Source: Lacibacter sp. H407
Lineage (GTDB): Bacteria; Bacteroidota; Bacteroidia; Chitinophagales; Chitinophagaceae
NCBI RefSeq assembly: GCF_037892605.1
Contig: NZ_JBBKTU010000002.1
Span: 186,001-250,000, forward strand
Direction of reading: 5' to 3'
DNA: 64,000 bases
The position numbers were made by a program, and so were the translations under genes. Below, one piece after another: positions 6,813-62,457 of this stretch. Position 1 is the stretch's first letter; every line of letters begins with the position of its first letter. Under the pieces are notes generated by a model. The model saw only the letters and a list, made by a program, of their open reading frames with translations, did not search any database and was not told where the DNA came from.

Positions 6813-8066
6813 TTGAAAACCGCATCTAATCACATACAGCTCGATTTTGCAGGCGCTGCACAACGCATTAAAAAAGTAGTGCATAAAACGCCTTTGCAGG
6901 TAAGCCGCAGTCTCTCGAAAAAATATCACTGTAAAGTATATCTGAAGCGGGAAGACTTGCAGGTTGTACGCAGCTACAAAATTCGTGGTGCGTACAACAT
7001 GATGAGTAGTTTATCTGCGGAGGAATTGCAAAATGGAGTTGTATGTGCAAGTGCGGGAAATCATGCACAAGGATTTGCGTACAGTTGCAGAAAGCTCAAT
7101 GTAAAAGGCGTAGTATTTATGCCGGTAATAACTCCCAATCAAAAGATCAACCAGACAAAAATGTTTGGAGAAGATTTTATAGAAGTGAAACTGGTGGGCG
7201 ATACGTTTGATGATTGTGCATTCGCTGCAAAAAAATACACGGAAGAAAACGGGATGACGTTTATTCCACCCTTTGATGATCTGCGCATCATTGAAGGACA
7301 GGGAACGGTTGGTGTTGAAATTTTAGAAGAGCTTCCGGAAATTGATTATCTCTTTGTGCCGGTTGGCGGAGGTGGATTGAGTGCAGGTGTAGGTTCTTAT
7401 TTCAAAACCTATTCACCCAAAACAAAAATTGTTGGTCTTGAACCGGAGGGTGCTCCATCGATGTATGAAGCGCTGAAAGCCGGTCATCCCGTAACAGTTG
7501 AAAATATTGATCGCTTTGTGGATGGCGCTGCAGTAAAAAGAGTGGGCGATGTAACCTTCAACATTTGTAAAGATGTGTTGGACGATATGCATCTTGTAGC
7601 AGAAGGAAAAGTGTGCTCCACTATTTTGAAACTGTATAACGAAGATGCGATTGTAGTGGAGCCAGCGGGGGCATTAAGTATAGCTTCTTTGGATGATTAT
7701 GCTGAAGCGATCAAAGGAAAAATAGTGGTATGTGTTGTAAGCGGCAGTAACAATGATATCGATCGTATGCAGGAGATCAAAGAACGAAGCCTCCAATACG
7801 AAGGATTGAAACATTATTTCCTCATTCGTTTTGCACAACGGCCGGGTGCATTGAAAGAATTTGTGAATGATGTGCTGGGCCCCAGCGATGATATCGTACG
7901 CTTTGAATATATGCAGAAGCATAATAAAGAAACCGGTCCTGCTTTGGTTGGTGTGGAACTGCGGAGCAAGGATGATTATGAAGCACTGATGAATAACCTG
8001 AAAAAATACCAGATCAACTTTACTGAGTTAAACAAAAACGATAATATGTTCGGCTATATCGTGTGA
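6813..8066 (+). CDS. ilvA: Threonine ammonia-lyase (threonine dehydratase)
   Basis: PLP enzyme that deaminates threonine to 2-oxobutyrate, the entry to isoleucine synthesis. PLP lysine is K56 in RSYKIRGAYNM; the asparagine-containing CASAGNHAQGFAYSC and the glycine-rich phosphate loop VPVGGGGLSAGVG follow in order. The last 90 or so residues form one ACT-like regulatory domain (HYFLIRFAQRPGALKEFVND), so this is the 410-420-residue form with a single regulatory unit rather than the longer enterobacterial form. The only start that keeps the conserved N-terminus is TTG at 6813, 10 bp after the ilvC stop; no in-frame ATG occurs before the active site. Weak start plus tight spacing suggests translational coupling to ilvC. 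Confidence 0.93.
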   Translation: MKTASNHIQLDFAGAAQRIKKVVHKTPLQVSRSLSKKYHCKVYLKREDLQVVRSYKIRGAYNMMSSLSAEELQNGVVCASAGNHAQGFAYSCRKLNVKGVVFMPVITPNQKINQTKMFGEDFIEVKLVGDTFDDCAFAAKKYTEENGMTFIPPFDDLRIIEGQGTVGVEILEELPEIDYLFVPVGGGGLSAGVGSYFKTYSPKTKIVGLEPEGAPSMYEALKAGHPVTVENIDRFVDGAAVKRVGDVTFNICKDVLDDMHLVAEGKVCSTILKLYNEDAIVVEPAGALSIASLDDYAEAIKGKIVVCVVSGSNNDIDRMQEIKERSLQYEGLKHYFLIRFAQRPGALKEFVNDVLGPSDDIVRFEYMQKHNKETGPALVGVELRSKDDYEALMNNLKKYQINFTELNKNDNMFGYIV

Positions 8067-32147: not shown

Positions 32148-35100
32148 ATGAGAATTCTTTTACTCCTTCTTTTCGTTAGTACCACATGGCTGCATGTATC
32201 GGCGCAGCGGTTTCCCTATGCGTTCAACCGCATCAGCACGGATGATGGAATGGGGTTGCAGTCTAATGTGCTCTTCAGTATTTACCAGGATCAGAAAGGA
32301 TATATATGGGTTGGCGGCAGTAATGGTGTGCAGCGTTTTGATGGTGCCAAGTTTGTAACGTTTAGTCCCGATGGTACCAGGGGAGATCCATTGCCAACGG
32401 TTGCCGTAAATCAAATACTTCCTGCCGATAGTACCAGCATGTGGCTGGCTGCTTTTTCATTGCGTGAGTTTGGAATTTTTAATCCATCTACCTACAGTTA
32501 TCATAAAGTGCCGTTACAGACTTCGAAGAGCCTGCCCGCCCGTTCCGAATTCAGAATGTGGCAGGATGCGTACGGCGATACCTACATCAACATACATGGC
32601 TATGGAAAAATTGTGAAGTATGATAATAAGGCAGGAGCCTTTACCGAGAATACGCCATTGAATAAATTACCTGCTAACTGGAAAGCAACATTCAACACAT
32701 TTCATGACCAGCAGAAAAAGCAATACTGGATCGTTACCGACAGCGGATTGTGTGTGTATGATGAAGCCAGTAAACAAATGTGGAGTCGAAAGTACAATCC
32801 GGCGAATCTTGCATTGTTGAATAATGCCGATGTTCAATACAGAGTTACTGAATTTTTCATTGATGATCAACGCAGACATTGGGTGTTTAACTGGCCGGGC
32901 GTGCAGGAGTTTCATTGTTTTGATTCCACAGGAACAAGATCGTTACAGGATACAGCCGGTTTAAACGGCGTAAACACTTCTTATTCTGAACTGCGGCATT
33001 TCTTTCAAACATCGAAGGGTACACTATGGATCTACGGCCTCGGCAACTTATTCAGTGTGGAGCCGGGTAATGCAGAGAACAAAGATCGTTTTCAATTGTA
33101 CCGCAATCAGTATCTCGATAATTACGGCATCCGCTACGAAGCGGTGAATCAGTTGTACGAAGATAAAGATGGGATGGTTTGGATCGCAACCGATCAGGGG
33201 TTGTATTATACCTCGCCTTTCTCAGCCGACATCGTCAATATTTATTTATCGAACATACCGGGTTATTATAACGTAACTGATATTATTGAATTGCAGAATG
33301 GCGACTACTGGCTCAGTACCTGGGGCAAGGGTGTGTTAACAATGAACAGAAGTTTTCGCCCTTATCCGTCACCGTTATATACCAACACTTCGTTGATTGA
33401 TAAAACCAGGTTAACAGCATACAAACAAACATGGAGTATGTGTCAGCAACGTACAACCGGAAAAGTATTTATCGGTTGCCAGATGGGTTTGCTGATGGTG
33501 TATGATCCTGCAACTAAAAAAACGGACTACCTCGAGCCCGATGTATTTGAGAATCGCACCATCCGTTATATTACGGAAGATCAGGATAACAATATTTGGT
33601 TTGGTACACAGGCAGGCCGTGTGATCAGGTATGATGGAACAGATTATAAAATTGTACTTGATCTTGGTATTGGTGCCATCATTTATAAAATATTAATTGA
33701 CAAACAAGGCTGGGCGTGGATCGCCACACATGATAAAGGTGTGTATGCACTCAATACCAAAACAGGAAAAGTGGAACAGCATTACACAGCAGATGATGCA
33801 ACACAGCCATTGTTTGCCGGTACCTGTTACGATCTGGAGCAATTGAACGACAGTATTATTTATGCTGCTACAGAAGCACTGAATATTATTAATAAAAAGA
33901 CGGGTAAAGTGGAGCAGGTATCGCTGCGTGAAGGATTACCTTCCAATTCCATCAAGCGGTTGCGGTTAGATAACAGCGGATATTTATGGATCATTACACA
34001 TAAAGGATTGTCCCGTTACGATCATAAACGAAAACGTTTTACCAGTTACGGACGTAAAGACGGCATATTGATCGCTGAGTCATCAGACAAAGCGGATTAT
34101 ATCTGCAGCGAAGGATACCTGATGTTTACCGGCACCAACAGTTTGTTGTTTTTTAAACCGGAAACATTTCGAAGAAGTACACCACCGCCGGATGTTACCA
34201 TCACCGATTTTTTATTGGGAAGCGAATATCAATTACTTGATTCGTTACAGCGTTTACCGGAAATACGATTAATGCCTGATCAGAATAATTTCATGATCAG
34301 CTTTGCCTGTCTTGATTACAAAAACAGGGATAAGTTTATTTACTATTATAAAATGGAAGGGCTGCATAAAGACTGGATCAGGGCCGATCGCTTATCTGTA
34401 CCTTTTACTGCACTTGCACCGGGTCATTATACTTTTCTGGTGAAAGCCGAAAGCCTGGATGGAATGGTTTCAAAAAATATTTCATCACTACGCATTTTTG
34501 TAAAACCTCCTTTCTGGCGAACCTATTGGTTTGCGGCCACATTGCTGTTGCTGCTGGCATTGATTGCTTACAGTATGCATCGTCTTCGTTTGCACCGCTA
34601 CTTTGCTGTTGAAAAGATCCGCAACCGTGTAGCCCGTGATCTGCACGATGATATGGGCAGTACACTCAGCACCATTAATATTCTCAGCTCCATGGCGAAA
34701 GCAAAGTTGAATACGGATTCAATAAAAACGGGTGAATATATCAATAAGATCAGCGATAACAGTCAGCGGATGATGGAAGCAATGGATGATATTGTGTGGG
34801 CCATTAAGCCATCCAACGACAGTATGCAGAAAGTGGTGGCACGCATGCGGGAGTTTGCCACAAGTGTGTTTGAAGCAAAAGATATTGACCTGGAGTTTAA
34901 AGCAGAAGAGGAAGTGAATGAAGCAAAAATTGATATGGAAGGGCGCAGGGATTTCTTCCTTATTTTTAAAGAAGCGGTGAATAATGCAGCCAAGTATTCA
35001 AAGTGCGGCAAAGCACTCGTGCATGTATCTGTTGAAAAAACAACATTGCAGTTACGTGTAAAAGATAATGGTGTTGGATTTGATGTAAAAGCAGCCGATG

Positions 35101-35219
35101 GAGGGAACGGGTTGGGCAATATGCAGAAGCGGACAGATGCATTGAAAGGCAAACTTCAATTGATATCGAAGCAAGGTGAAGGAACGGAAGTAGTATTAAC
35201 AGTACCTCTTAATGCATAA
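32148..35219 (+). CDS. Two-component sensor kinase with propeller sensor (Reg_prop / Y_Y_Y / HisKA_3)
   Basis: 1023 residues. Signal peptide at the start (RILLLLLFVSTTWLHVSAQ), then a periplasmic double beta-propeller built of Reg_prop repeats (GYIWVGGSNGVQRFDG, GMVWIATDQGLYY, NNIWFGTQAGRVIRYDG, GWAWIATHDKGVYAL, GYLWIITHKGLSRYD), a Y_Y_Y domain (about 700-780, ending PGHYTFLVKAESLDG), one membrane helix (WFAATLLLLLALIAYSM, about 800), a HisKA_3 phosphoacceptor (H in ARDLHDDMGSTLSTI) and a HATPase (FKEAVNNAAKYS, DNGVGFDV, GNGLGNMQKR). There is no receiver or AraC domain, so it is not a hybrid; the NarL-type regulator at 36400 is the expected partner. Carbohydrate sensing is typical of the family, not shown here. 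Confidence 0.93.
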   Translation: MRILLLLLFVSTTWLHVSAQRFPYAFNRISTDDGMGLQSNVLFSIYQDQKGYIWVGGSNGVQRFDGAKFVTFSPDGTRGDPLPTVAVNQILPADSTSMWLAAFSLREFGIFNPSTYSYHKVPLQTSKSLPARSEFRMWQDAYGDTYINIHGYGKIVKYDNKAGAFTENTPLNKLPANWKATFNTFHDQQKKQYWIVTDSGLCVYDEASKQMWSRKYNPANLALLNNADVQYRVTEFFIDDQRRHWVFNWPGVQEFHCFDSTGTRSLQDTAGLNGVNTSYSELRHFFQTSKGTLWIYGLGNLFSVEPGNAENKDRFQLYRNQYLDNYGIRYEAVNQLYEDKDGMVWIATDQGLYYTSPFSADIVNIYLSNIPGYYNVTDIIELQNGDYWLSTWGKGVLTMNRSFRPYPSPLYTNTSLIDKTRLTAYKQTWSMCQQRTTGKVFIGCQMGLLMVYDPATKKTDYLEPDVFENRTIRYITEDQDNNIWFGTQAGRVIRYDGTDYKIVLDLGIGAIIYKILIDKQGWAWIATHDKGVYALNTKTGKVEQHYTADDATQPLFAGTCYDLEQLNDSIIYAATEALNIINKKTGKVEQVSLREGLPSNSIKRLRLDNSGYLWIITHKGLSRYDHKRKRFTSYGRKDGILIAESSDKADYICSEGYLMFTGTNSLLFFKPETFRRSTPPPDVTITDFLLGSEYQLLDSLQRLPEIRLMPDQNNFMISFACLDYKNRDKFIYYYKMEGLHKDWIRADRLSVPFTALAPGHYTFLVKAESLDGMVSKNISSLRIFVKPPFWRTYWFAATLLLLLALIAYSMHRLRLHRYFAVEKIRNRVARDLHDDMGSTLSTINILSSMAKAKLNTDSIKTGEYINKISDNSQRMMEAMDDIVWAIKPSNDSMQKVVARMREFATSVFEAKDIDLEFKAEEEVNEAKIDMEGRRDFFLIFKEAVNNAAKYSKCGKALVHVSVEKTTLQLRVKDNGVGFDVKAADGGNGLGNMQKRTDALKGKLQLISKQGEGTEVVLTVPLNA

Positions 35220-36332: not shown

Positions 36333-36339
36333 GATTAGT

Positions 36340-36383
36340 ACATATTTATGTGATTGGTTGGCTGTGAGGGAATATTAACTTTG
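36340..36383 (+). promoter_or_regulatory. Regulon promoter 4, response regulator gene
   Basis: TACATATTTATGTG followed by ATTG (36340-36353) and -7 box TAACTTTG (36376-36383), spacing 23 bp. It starts 8 bp after the acyltransferase stop, so the regulator has its own promoter with the regulon site, consistent with autoregulation. Confidence 0.75.
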
Positions 36384-36399
36384 TATAAACACAAGAAAC

Positions 36400-37035
36400 A
36401 TGATCAAAGTATTGCTGTATGAAGACAATCCGCAACTGCGTGAAGGGTTAACCATGTTGATCGATGGCAGTGATGGATTTACTGTACTTGCATCTTACAA
36501 AAACTGCGATAACGTAACTGATGAAGTGAAGGCATGGAACCCTGATGTGATCTTAATGGACATTGATATGCCGGGTACCAATGGTATTGAAGGGTTGAAA
36601 TTGATCCGCTCACAAAACAGCACGGTAAAAATTTTAATGCTCACGGTATTTGATGATAACAAGAATGTATTTGAAGCCATCCGCAATGGTGCGAATGGGT
36701 ATGTGTTGAAGAAAACTCCACCGGCTAAATTGTTAGAATATATCGAAGAGGCTGCCAGCGGCGGAGCACCAATGACAGCTTCCATTGCTACACAGGTACT
36801 CAAAATGTTTTCGCAGGTAAATACGCATGTTCAAAATGAAGAATACCATTTGAGCGACCGTGAAAAACAAGTACTGCAGTTACTGGTTGATGGCTTCAGT
36901 TATAAAATGATCGCTTCCGAAATGTTCATTTCCATTGATACTGTTCGAAGTCATATCAAAAAGATCTACGAAAAGCTCCACGTCAATTCAAAAAGCGAAG
37001 CAGTAGCAAAAGCATTTAAGGATAAATTGCTGTAA
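36400..37035 (+). CDS. NarL/FixJ-type response regulator
   Basis: 211 residues: receiver domain (about 1-120) with acidic pair E8/D9, phosphoacceptor D54 in ILMDIDMPG, threonine in MLTVFDD and lysine in VLKKTPP; linker; C-terminal LuxR-type helix-turn-helix (about 145-205) with LSDREKQVLQLLVDGFSYKMIASEMFISIDTVRSHIKKIYEKL. It is separated from the kinase gene only by the acyltransferase gene and is the natural partner of the HisKA_3 kinase. I propose that it binds the 14-bp palindrome found before itself, the kinase and the other units of this region. A terminator follows. Confidence 0.95.
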   Translation: MIKVLLYEDNPQLREGLTMLIDGSDGFTVLASYKNCDNVTDEVKAWNPDVILMDIDMPGTNGIEGLKLIRSQNSTVKILMLTVFDDNKNVFEAIRNGANGYVLKKTPPAKLLEYIEEAASGGAPMTASIATQVLKMFSQVNTHVQNEEYHLSDREKQVLQLLVDGFSYKMIASEMFISIDTVRSHIKKIYEKLHVNSKSEAVAKAFKDKLL

Positions 37036-48032: not shown

Positions 48033-48473
48033 ATGCAAAAAGTAATCTTATCATCATTTCTTCTTTTATTGTTGTTTGCCGCATGCACAAAGTCCGGTGT
48101 CAGAGAATTTGAACCGCCCGTTTCAAAGACGATTGAATTTCGATTGTCACAGGCCTCCGACTATTCGGGTTCAGTTTACGATGGAGTTCAGGCCGAGGTT
48201 ACTTTGTCTGTAAGCATACAATCGGACGTGCTTCCTGCACTGCTGATTTTATGGGATACAATTATTCCTTATCAAAGTTTACGTGTTTATCCCGGTTCCC
48301 AAACGCCTCTGATCATTAATAAACAATTCAATGGTATTATAGAAAGTAAAGAAACAGTTCGCTACAGCAAAGTAATTCGTTACAGAGATGCGTTGAATCA
48401 AATCTCCATGACTGCTTTTGGTGAAGATATTCCTGCTTCAGTAAACAGCAAATCTGTACCGGTTGATTTATAA
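48033..48473 (+). CDS. Small lipoprotein of the regulon
   Basis: 146 residues, lipoprotein signal (LSSFLLLLLFAACTKSG). The remainder is beta-rich and unremarkable (SKTIEFRLSQASDYSGSVYDG, VTLSVSIQSDVLPALLILWD); no family recognised. It has its own regulon promoter and the leader CCTTATA before the start. No terminator is visible between it and the small RNA promoter 30 bp on. Confidence 0.7.
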   Translation: MQKVILSSFLLLLLFAACTKSGVREFEPPVSKTIEFRLSQASDYSGSVYDGVQAEVTLSVSIQSDVLPALLILWDTIIPYQSLRVYPGSQTPLIINKQFNGIIESKETVRYSKVIRYRDALNQISMTAFGEDIPASVNSKSVPVDL

Positions 48474-48503
48474 ATGTTCATTTTTTTGTTTAGAAAAACA
48501 AAT

Positions 48504-48548
48504 CACATGTTTATGCGATTGATGAGCATTTTACAAATTGCATCTTTG
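48504..48548 (+). promoter_or_regulatory. Regulon promoter 10, small RNA
   Basis: CACATGTTTATGCG followed by ATTG (48504-48517), -7-like box CATCTTTG (48541-48548), spacing 24 bp. No start codon follows before the terminator at 48597. Confidence 0.7.
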
Positions 48549-48552
48549 CATA

Positions 48553-48621
48553 AGTCATAATTAATAGAAGATTTACAGTTGCTGACCTTTCACCTGAGAC
48601 CTGTTCAACAGGTCTTTTTTT
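48553..48621 (+). ncRNA. Predicted regulon-controlled small RNA (about 70 nt)
   Basis: Between regulon promoter 10 and a strong terminator lies a stretch of about 70 nt with no ATG and no usable reading frame. The start is an estimate from the -7 box; the end is the T-run at 48615-48621. The 5' part is AT-rich and unstructured (ATAATTAATAGAAGA), free for base pairing. Immediately after it a second regulon promoter begins for the lipoprotein gene, so this is a separate unit. Its product is unknown and it is a prediction only. Confidence 0.55.
48597..48621 (+). terminator. Rho-independent terminator of the small RNA
   Basis: AGACCTG/CAGGTCT stem (48597-48603, 48609-48615), loop TTCAA, then a run of seven T. 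Confidence 0.92.
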
Positions 48622-48625
48622 ATTT

Positions 48626-48671
48626 CACATATTTATGCGGTTGTAGTGCAACGTTAGTAGATTGACATTTG
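48626..48671 (+). promoter_or_regulatory. Regulon promoter 11, repeat lipoprotein C
   Basis: CACATATTTATGCG followed by GTTG (48626-48639), -7-like box GACATTTG (48664-48671), spacing 25 bp. Its palindrome starts 5 bp after the small RNA T-run. Confidence 0.75.
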
Positions 48672-48704
48672 TCAAGTCAATAATCATTAAACCTTATCAT
48701 TATT

Positions 48705-49490
48705 ATGAAGTTCAATTTCAAATCAGCAACACTGCTGCTCGGGCTTATTGTAAGCACCACATTTATTTTCAGCTCATGTAAAAAAACGAACGATGAGCCG
48801 GAACAAAGTACACGGATCAAAACGGTTGTGTCGCCCGACAACGAGGTAACGTTTACGTACAATCCAAACGGCACCATTAAAACAGCGGCGGTAAAAAACA
48901 GTTTTTCTACATCGGGTGATCTGATCACTTATCAGTTATCGTATAATGCGGCGGGTAAGATCAGTGAGATTACATCCGATGAAGATGTGCGGATAGTACC
49001 CATCTACACAAACGGTGTTTTGGCCGAAGCTTCCTTTGAAACGATCAATGGTATTGAGTTGTTTGTTACAACATACGAATACCAGAACGGAAATCTTGTA
49101 ACAGCTGAAATTGAAACAGCATCAGGCCAGGCATGGACAAAATTTATGTTCCAGTACAATGCTGCCGGAAATGTTACAAAAACAGAAACCTTCCTTGCAA
49201 ACCCGTTGCAGGGCAATCAACTTGAATTTGCAGGTTCTATCGCATACACCTATGATGCGAAGATCAATCCTCTCCATCCTGCAAAAGAGCTGATGCATTT
49301 ATTGTGGATACCATCGTCTCCCAATAATGCACTTAATGAAATTCACAAAGACAGTAACAACGAACTGGAAGAAACTGTGAATTATACCTATCAGTACAAT
49401 AAGAATAATACGCCGAAGTCGGCGGTAATGCAATCCACTGTTGTGGGTGAACAACCGGTGAATACAAATTTGACATTTACCTATTTCTAA
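48705..49490 (+). CDS. Repeat lipoprotein, paralogue C
   Basis: 261 residues, lipoprotein signal (SATLLLGLIVSTTFIFSSCKK). RHS/YD-like units as in paralogues A and B: VTFTYNPNGTIKTAAVK, YQLSYNAAGKISEI, TTYEYQNGNLVTAEIE, FQYNAAGNVTKTETFL, IAYTYDAKINPLHPAKEL, VNYTYQYNKNNTPKS, ending NLTFTYF. The register differs from A and B enough to make it the older relative. Probably surface exposed. Last member of the regulon block on this side. Confidence 0.75.
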   Translation: MKFNFKSATLLLGLIVSTTFIFSSCKKTNDEPEQSTRIKTVVSPDNEVTFTYNPNGTIKTAAVKNSFSTSGDLITYQLSYNAAGKISEITSDEDVRIVPIYTNGVLAEASFETINGIELFVTTYEYQNGNLVTAEIETASGQAWTKFMFQYNAAGNVTKTETFLANPLQGNQLEFAGSIAYTYDAKINPLHPAKELMHLLWIPSSPNNALNEIHKDSNNELEETVNYTYQYNKNNTPKSAVMQSTVVGEQPVNTNLTFTYF

Positions 49491-62061: not shown

Positions 62062-62457
62062 ATGAAAAAAGATATTGAGGTACGTGACGATGTAATACTG
62101 TTGGTGAATACATTTTACGATAAAGTAAAACCCGATGAAACCATTGGTTTCTTTTTCAATAAAGTAAAACAGGTTGATTGGGAAAAGCATCTGCCATTGA
62201 TGTATGATTTCTGGCAGAATATTATTTTTCATACCGGTGGCTATACAGGTAATCCGATGCGTATTCACATGAACCTGCATAAACAAGCTCCGATGAAGAA
62301 AGAGCATTTCGATCGCTGGCTGCAGTTGTTTACAACAACAGTGGATGAATTATTTGAAGGCGAAAAAGCAGAACAAACAAAGCAACGGGCATTATCTATT
62401 GCTACAGTAATGCAGATCAATATTGCACAGTTGCCGCAACAGGAATCGATTTATTGA
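62062..62457 (+). CDS. Group III truncated haemoglobin
   Basis: 131 residues of the trHb group III (P) type: VLLVNTFYDKVKPDETIGFFFNKV at the start, WEKHLPLMYDFWQNIIF in the middle (conserved tryptophan and histidine) and the FDRWLQLFTTTVDELFEG segment with a proximal histidine in EHFDRW. Binds haem and probably oxygen or NO; located at the end of the nos operon, which suggests NO protection of the pathway. Cytoplasmic. Confidence 0.9.
   Translation: MKKDIEVRDDVILLVNTFYDKVKPDETIGFFFNKVKQVDWEKHLPLMYDFWQNIIFHTGGYTGNPMRIHMNLHKQAPMKKEHFDRWLQLFTTTVDELFEGEKAEQTKQRALSIATVMQINIAQLPQQESIY

Follow-up and report, generated by a model that had tools for sequence, protein, structure and literature searches.

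A probable small noncoding RNA gene of the genus Lacibacter and its likely NarL-type activator

UvrY and GacA are NarL-type response regulators, and RNAs of the CsrB/RsmY type carry repeated GGA motifs. The CsrB/CsrC and RsmY/RsmZ RNAs, which UvrY and GacA activate, are described as sequestering CsrA. UvrY acts at csrB and csrC through a palindromic site, which at csrB is placed around −183 in the account of that system (PMC4682653). In the Bacteroidota, the small RNA (sRNA) maps that we met come from Bacteroides and Flavobacterium. The description of Bacteroides thetaiotaomicron gives 49 'high-confidence' intergenic sRNAs, for which a Rho-independent terminator was required, a promoter of the sigma-ABfr type at 76% of the intergenic sRNA candidates, and GibS, an RNA of 145 nt (PMC7366714). 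The FopS sRNAs (presented with RbpB), a 14-member paralogous family, are described as repressing the translation of SusC-like transporters (PMC11697453). Rfp18 of Flavobacterium psychrophilum is presented as a genus-conserved sRNA, for which a strong structure and pairing by way of a stem-loop are predicted (PMC9723704).

The DNA analysed here, which we call the window, is a stretch of 64,000 nucleotides (G000:C2:186001-250000) from the 4.87-Mb genome of Lacibacter sp. H407 (G000). Positions 48503–48621 form a probable small noncoding RNA gene that appears to be restricted to the genus Lacibacter (Table 1). The locus resembles the CsrB/RsmY type, as described, in bringing together a response regulator, a palindromic site (with binding presumed here), a dedicated promoter and an RNA without an ORF. 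It differs in that GGA is absent from the predicted RNA in all six genomes that carry it, so the RNA is not a member of that type, and in the position of its site, about −42 as against the −183 or so described for csrB. With the Bacteroides intergenic sRNAs, as their source presents them, it shares a −7-box promoter (by sequence), a predicted terminator (in four of six units) and the lack of an ORF; compared by description, it differs from GibS in its length of at most 69 nt and in its occurrence only in Lacibacter among the genomes searched. Like FopS, by description, it is a Bacteroidota sRNA, here a candidate; unlike the FopS paralogues, again by description, it has one strong match per carrier genome to R1, a sequence-only model of its core. 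Conservation within one genus is shared with Rfp18 as published, but the Lacibacter core, unlike Rfp18, has no consensus structure. The titles and abstract openings listed in literature searches for Lacibacter hold nothing on its sRNAs, and a search for Chitinophagaceae sRNAs and transcription start sites returned no literature. Relative to known catalogues, this is probably a new candidate sRNA, from Lacibacter, of an already-known sRNA kind. It offers a compact test case for the working of such RNAs in this phylum, with a probable two-component link, a core more conserved between groups than the beginning of the adjacent gene, and natural variants with and without a terminator.

Table 1. Features of the locus and of its presumed regulators, in window coordinates.
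Feature	Position	Strand	Remark
P1 regulon palindrome TCACATGTTTATGCGA	48503..48518	+	centre about −42.5 from the predicted start
P1 −7 box ATCTTTG, Bacteroidota TAnnTTTG type	48542..48548	+	
Noncoding RNA (predicted; at most 69 nt; lacks ATG and GGA)	48553..48621	+	
Conserved RNA core, beginning at about the predicted 5′ end	48553..48594	+	72% between-group mean identity
Intrinsic terminator: 9-bp hairpin (48596-48616) and T-run of seven T (48615-48621)	48596..48621	+	predicted
P2 regulon palindrome TCACATATTTATGCGG, belonging to the next gene	48625..48640	+	
P2 −7 box CATTTG	48666..48671	+	
Downstream lipoprotein-like gene, RHS-repeat match (PF05593, 1.5e-8)	48705..49490	+	
Upstream small lipoprotein-like gene	48033..48473	+	matched only in G000, G007 and G003 (stretches of seven genomes compared)
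NarL/LuxR-type response regulator, probable activator	36400..37035	+	a site at 36338 lies before its gene
Reg_prop/Y_Y_Y/HisKA_3 sensor kinase, probable partner of the regulator	32148..35219	+	partnership inferred from closeness

The palindrome that marks the regulon has the form TCACAT-N4-ATGYGR and is found in many copies between 31 and 49 kb of the window. With up to two mismatches, the window holds 21 matches on both strands, compared with a shuffle mean of 4.8, and none of 100 shuffles reached 21. Throughout the G000 genome, a limit of one mismatch gave 17 forward and 18 reverse matches (4 and 2 in the reversed control), and seven of the nine exact copies lie inside the window. A sequence-only reading of this DNA had proposed a regulon palindrome and a −7-like box at the normal spacing, and this is borne out: the TTTG of the first promoter (P1) begins 34.5 bp from the palindrome centre, and the other ORF-bearing regulon promoters of the window have 34–35 by the same rounding. 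The P1 palindrome of the other five units shows no or one departure from TCRCATNNNNATGYGR; the box is TTTG in four of the six genomes and TTTA in G004 and G001. The same reading had put a second regulon promoter (P2) five bases beyond the terminator. The P2 palindrome is present, but it opens three bases past the T-run.

Sites with at least 14 of the 16 palindrome positions and TTT[GC] 33–37 bp from the centre were surveyed in stretches of seven genomes; P1 of G004 and G001, with TTTA, falls outside these rows. The survey gave 48 rows, 37 of which precede an ORF of at least 73 aa that starts 3–56 nt past the box. Four of the 11 exceptions are P1 of G000, G007, G003 and G010. The remaining seven include two reverse readings of the P1/P2 palindromes (G003, G010), three 14-of-16 minus-strand sites (G000, G010, G011), a 16-of-16 site of G004 before a 19-aa frame, seemingly a broken S41 gene, and a 16-of-16 site of G011; among these seven, a long ORF is absent or only 80 nt away. 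Within the window's own stretch (28–64 kb), an ORF follows in seven of nine rows; P1 and one minus-strand site with 14 of 16 positions make up the rest. P1 is thus not unique in having no long ORF: seven other rows are alike, two of them with 16-of-16 palindromes, and this counts against the sRNA reading. The G011 site, at 7095 (reverse complement of L107, G011:C4:930001-950000), has a 16-of-16 palindrome, a box at 35 and a 24-aa frame, and the next 190 nt or so are free of any long ORF. The stretch after it holds GTTGCTAACC, the ten-base core word of G010 and G001, and no core-model match at E ≤ 1 was reported there. This site is possibly a diverged relative of the RNA unit, or a product of chance.

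The likely activator is a NarL-type response regulator whose gene lies some 12 kb from the RNA and which is presumed from the shared sites to bind the palindrome. A site of 14–15 of 16 positions precedes the response-regulator gene in six of seven genomes; it lies at the usual distance and has 14 of 16 positions in the window (36338–36353) and 15 of 16 in five relatives. The position of this site before the regulator's own gene suggests autoregulation. The regulator (at least 90% identity) is present in 7 of 14 Lacibacter genomes. Six of these seven have the RNA unit, which occurs in none of the other genus genomes, and the regulator and the palindrome sites co-occur across the compared genomes.

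The 5′ end of the predicted RNA, 48553, was inferred from the position of the −7 box. The claim that about 70 nt without ATG follow the promoter agrees with the predicted length of up to 69 nt and with the absence of ATG from the transcribed part of all six units. The only frame of at least 20 aa that starts inside the predicted RNA of the window (TTG start, 28 aa) runs through the terminator, and a small ORF was ruled out on these two grounds. The first ATG after P1 sits inside the P2 palindrome, and the frame that it opens is 3 aa long in G000, 18 aa in G007 and 8 aa in G003; the first such ATG of G010 shares the reading frame of the P2 gene (284 aa). No Rfam 15 covariance model matched the window at its gathering score. 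Between 47870 and 48720, one match was found at E up to 5 (trpB, E = 3.5, 48420–48492), with no overlap with the RNA.

The unit is carried by 6 of the 14 Lacibacter genomes (G000, G007, G004, G003, G010 and G001), all of one genus. A DNA search of 59 genomes at E ≤ 0.001 matched five of them, including G000; the units of G007, G004 and G003 are 82%, 77% and 70% identical, respectively, and the fifth match, in G036, is a short one over the box region. The units of G010 and G001 were found by reading upstream of the orthologues of the next gene. R1 has one match per genome in six of the 14 genus genomes, all at the locus (E 6.6e-13 to 7.6e-10), and every other genus match has E 0.014 or worse. 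Of these 28 weak matches (E 0.014–1), the 14 that were examined lack a neighbouring regulon palindrome. Across 294 family genomes, a set that contained five of the six carriers and not G004, R1 gave nine matches outside the genus at E 3e-4 to 9e-3, with about three chance matches expected at E ≤ 0.01 and the E-values being rough. The best of the nine (L112, 3.1e-4) has no regulon site in the stretch examined. Two matches of the DNA search were ruled out as copies of the unit: that of L023 covers the box and a few bases only, and L024 holds the regulon promoter of a different gene. The downstream lipoprotein gene is found in the same 7 of 14 genus genomes as the regulator. The seventh of these, G011, has both genes, no R1 match at the locus and no double promoter. 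The gene 5′ of the unit varies, being the small lipoprotein gene in G000, G007 and G003, an S41 peptidase gene in G010 and G001, and another S41-like gene in G004.

The distances between the P1 and P2 palindromes in the six units are 122, 122, 120, 124, 119 and 118 bp. To describe conservation along the unit, we compared two groups, {G000, G007, G003, G004} and {G010, G001}, by mean identity of each segment. Between the groups, the core is at 0.72, the P1 spacer at 0.53, the tail at 0.51 and the 60 nt upstream at 0.49; the P1 and P2 palindromes reach 0.86 and 0.91, the P2 spacer 0.51, the P2 leader 0.61 and the first 60 nt of the next gene 0.64. Shuffled segments gave 0.46–0.54 (0.50 for the core and 0.49 for the P1 spacer). 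When all 15 pairs are averaged, core and P2 leader are level (both 0.72) and the start of the coding sequence is close to them (0.71); the core stands out in the comparison between groups. The conserved block opens close to where transcription should start, judged from the TAnnTTTG element, for which a span of −12 to −5 is given (PMC9723704). Conservation in relatives, one of the checks proposed beforehand, was thus found for palindrome, spacing and core in six of the seven regulator-bearing Lacibacter genomes, and it supports a selected, regulon-type transcript that is probably noncoding. The P1 and P2 transcripts also look alike in their first bases (48549–48575 and 48672–48700, AGTCATAA), most clearly in P2 of G003, as if one promoter had perhaps arisen from the other by tandem duplication.

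The sequence-only reading had called the terminator strong and the transcript independent. A hairpin with a T-run is indeed present in four of the six units (nine standard pairs in G000, G007 and G003, eight in G004), but the hairpin alone is within chance, with 14 terminator-like sites in 11 kb compared with 9.3 (sd 2.9) in shuffles; it is credible because of its conserved context. The G003 hairpin was misplaced by MAFFT, and its arms were aligned by hand on the structure. Relative to G000, three of its pairs differ on both sides and three on one side, and all nine are still standard. The G003 hairpin could have been replaced outright instead of changing stepwise. G010 and G001 yielded no terminator-like site and fold no better than shuffles (z −0.91 and 0.34), and the core is kept there nonetheless. 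An independent transcript is predicted for the four terminator-bearing units of this separate regulon-type unit, and independence does not hold for these two. G010 and G001 group together in four protein trees, at 100/100 in three of them and 92/93 in the fourth. Because the trees pair these genomes and the deeper order is unsettled, one loss of the terminator in their line, with the core retained afterwards, is likely, not proven.

The 5′ half of the RNA had been described as single-stranded, AT-rich and suited to pairing with regulon leaders. It is only moderately AT-rich (67%, compared with 59% for the window). RNAfold places it in a stem in G000, but the folds of the relatives differ and no consensus base pair runs through the six cores. 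The expectation of leader pairing found no support. We compared the core with transcribed leaders (from just past the box to start +45) in six genomes, with 300 shuffles per genome, and pairing was no better than shuffled in eight gene families and 34 gene–genome cells (combined z −0.93 to 1.73). One of the 34 cells had p below 0.05 (the G001 lipoprotein, 0.023). Families were labelled by protein start in this test, and the G001 row MKQLFNLIIF under DUF2807 is actually the S41 gene. Against called gene starts (−60 to +40), the S41 peptidase gene gave z of about −3.1 and −3.6 in G000 and −2.5 and −2.7 in G001. It was rejected as a target: the paired stretch of G000 lies mostly upstream of the −7 box and would not be transcribed there, and pairing is unfavourable in G010 (z 0.96). 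Other single-genome matches exist, for example with the gene at window position 62062 (z about −3.5), and nothing consistent was left among regulon leaders once these were limited to their transcribed parts. Two observations made along the unit concern the P2 spacer. In G007 (L026 1378-1390 and 1440-1452), inspection by eye finds 12 of 13 positions of the core part CTAACCTTGCACC matched by complementary bases in the P2 spacer GGTGCAACGTTAG. All four terminator-bearing genomes have the spacer word TGCAACGTTAG unchanged, and it is absent from the two without a terminator.

Our preferred reading, held with slightly better than even confidence, is that 48503–48621 is a small noncoding RNA gene that is activated by the regulator, terminated, and active through its core. 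As the shared sites suggest, the NarL-type regulator would activate a sigma-A type promoter through the palindrome near −42, and the RNA would be switched on together with the regulon's lipoprotein, hydrolase and peptidase genes. RNA polymerase is predicted to make about 65–69 nt and to stop at the hairpin. The action of the RNA would reside in a core of about 42 nt near the 5′ end, mostly unstructured, the sequence of which appears from the comparison of units to be kept by selection; the core most likely has a pairing or binding partner other than the tested regulon leaders.

The main rival of the sRNA reading is that the core is a cis-acting leader, with P1 a second promoter of the lipoprotein gene, the terminator an attenuator or partial barrier, and read-through controlling the gene. 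We regard this as possible but doubtful. The unit lies directly 5′ of the same lipoprotein gene in all six carriers, and G010 and G001 keep the core where no terminator was found that would halt P1 transcripts before the gene; nothing speaks more strongly against a purely stand-alone RNA than such a core without a terminator. However, the gene can do without P1, as P2 keeps its own palindrome and box in six of six genomes; no consensus pair is common to the six cores; and the complementarity between core and P2 spacer is imperfect or missing outside G007. It is unlikely, in our estimate, that both readings apply, with a terminated trans-acting sRNA in most carriers and a 5′ leader of the lipoprotein mRNA after terminator loss in the L. 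cauensis/L. luteus line; if true, an sRNA gene would here be on its way to becoming an mRNA leader, or one RNA would have roles in cis and in trans alike.

Two further explanations dispense with a functional RNA. That the core is a DNA element, either an extra operator or a spacing device for P2, with incidental P1 transcription, would account for a palindrome distance that stays within 118–124 bp even where the tail is unrelated. We consider it quite unlikely, as no dyad is visible in the core, conservation opens near the predicted start while the P1 spacer is close to its shuffled value, and a TTTG or TTTA box is retained in every unit. An ordinary spacer, in which the hairpin ends an upstream transcript or shields P2 and P1 is the relic of a duplicated promoter, seems very improbable to us. 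A relic would not hold the core at 72% identity when the promoter spacers are at 51–53%, nor is the core given up where the terminator was not found, even though the hairpin alone does not exceed chance and the likeness of the two transcript 5′ ends (AGTCATAA) fits an old duplication.

Two minor observations concern the regulon elsewhere. At L002 (G000:C1:4354369-4354384, minus strand), an exact palindrome is followed by a hairpin with a T-run and then by a lipoprotein-like gene; in the G007 counterpart the palindrome is identical and the hairpin is not kept. Finally, AAACCTTAT or a close form stands directly 5′ of the start codon in several regulon mRNAs, including that at window positions 48682–48704, and AAACCTTAT-N0-12-ATGA occurs 8+4 times genome-wide, compared with 2+2 in the reversed control.
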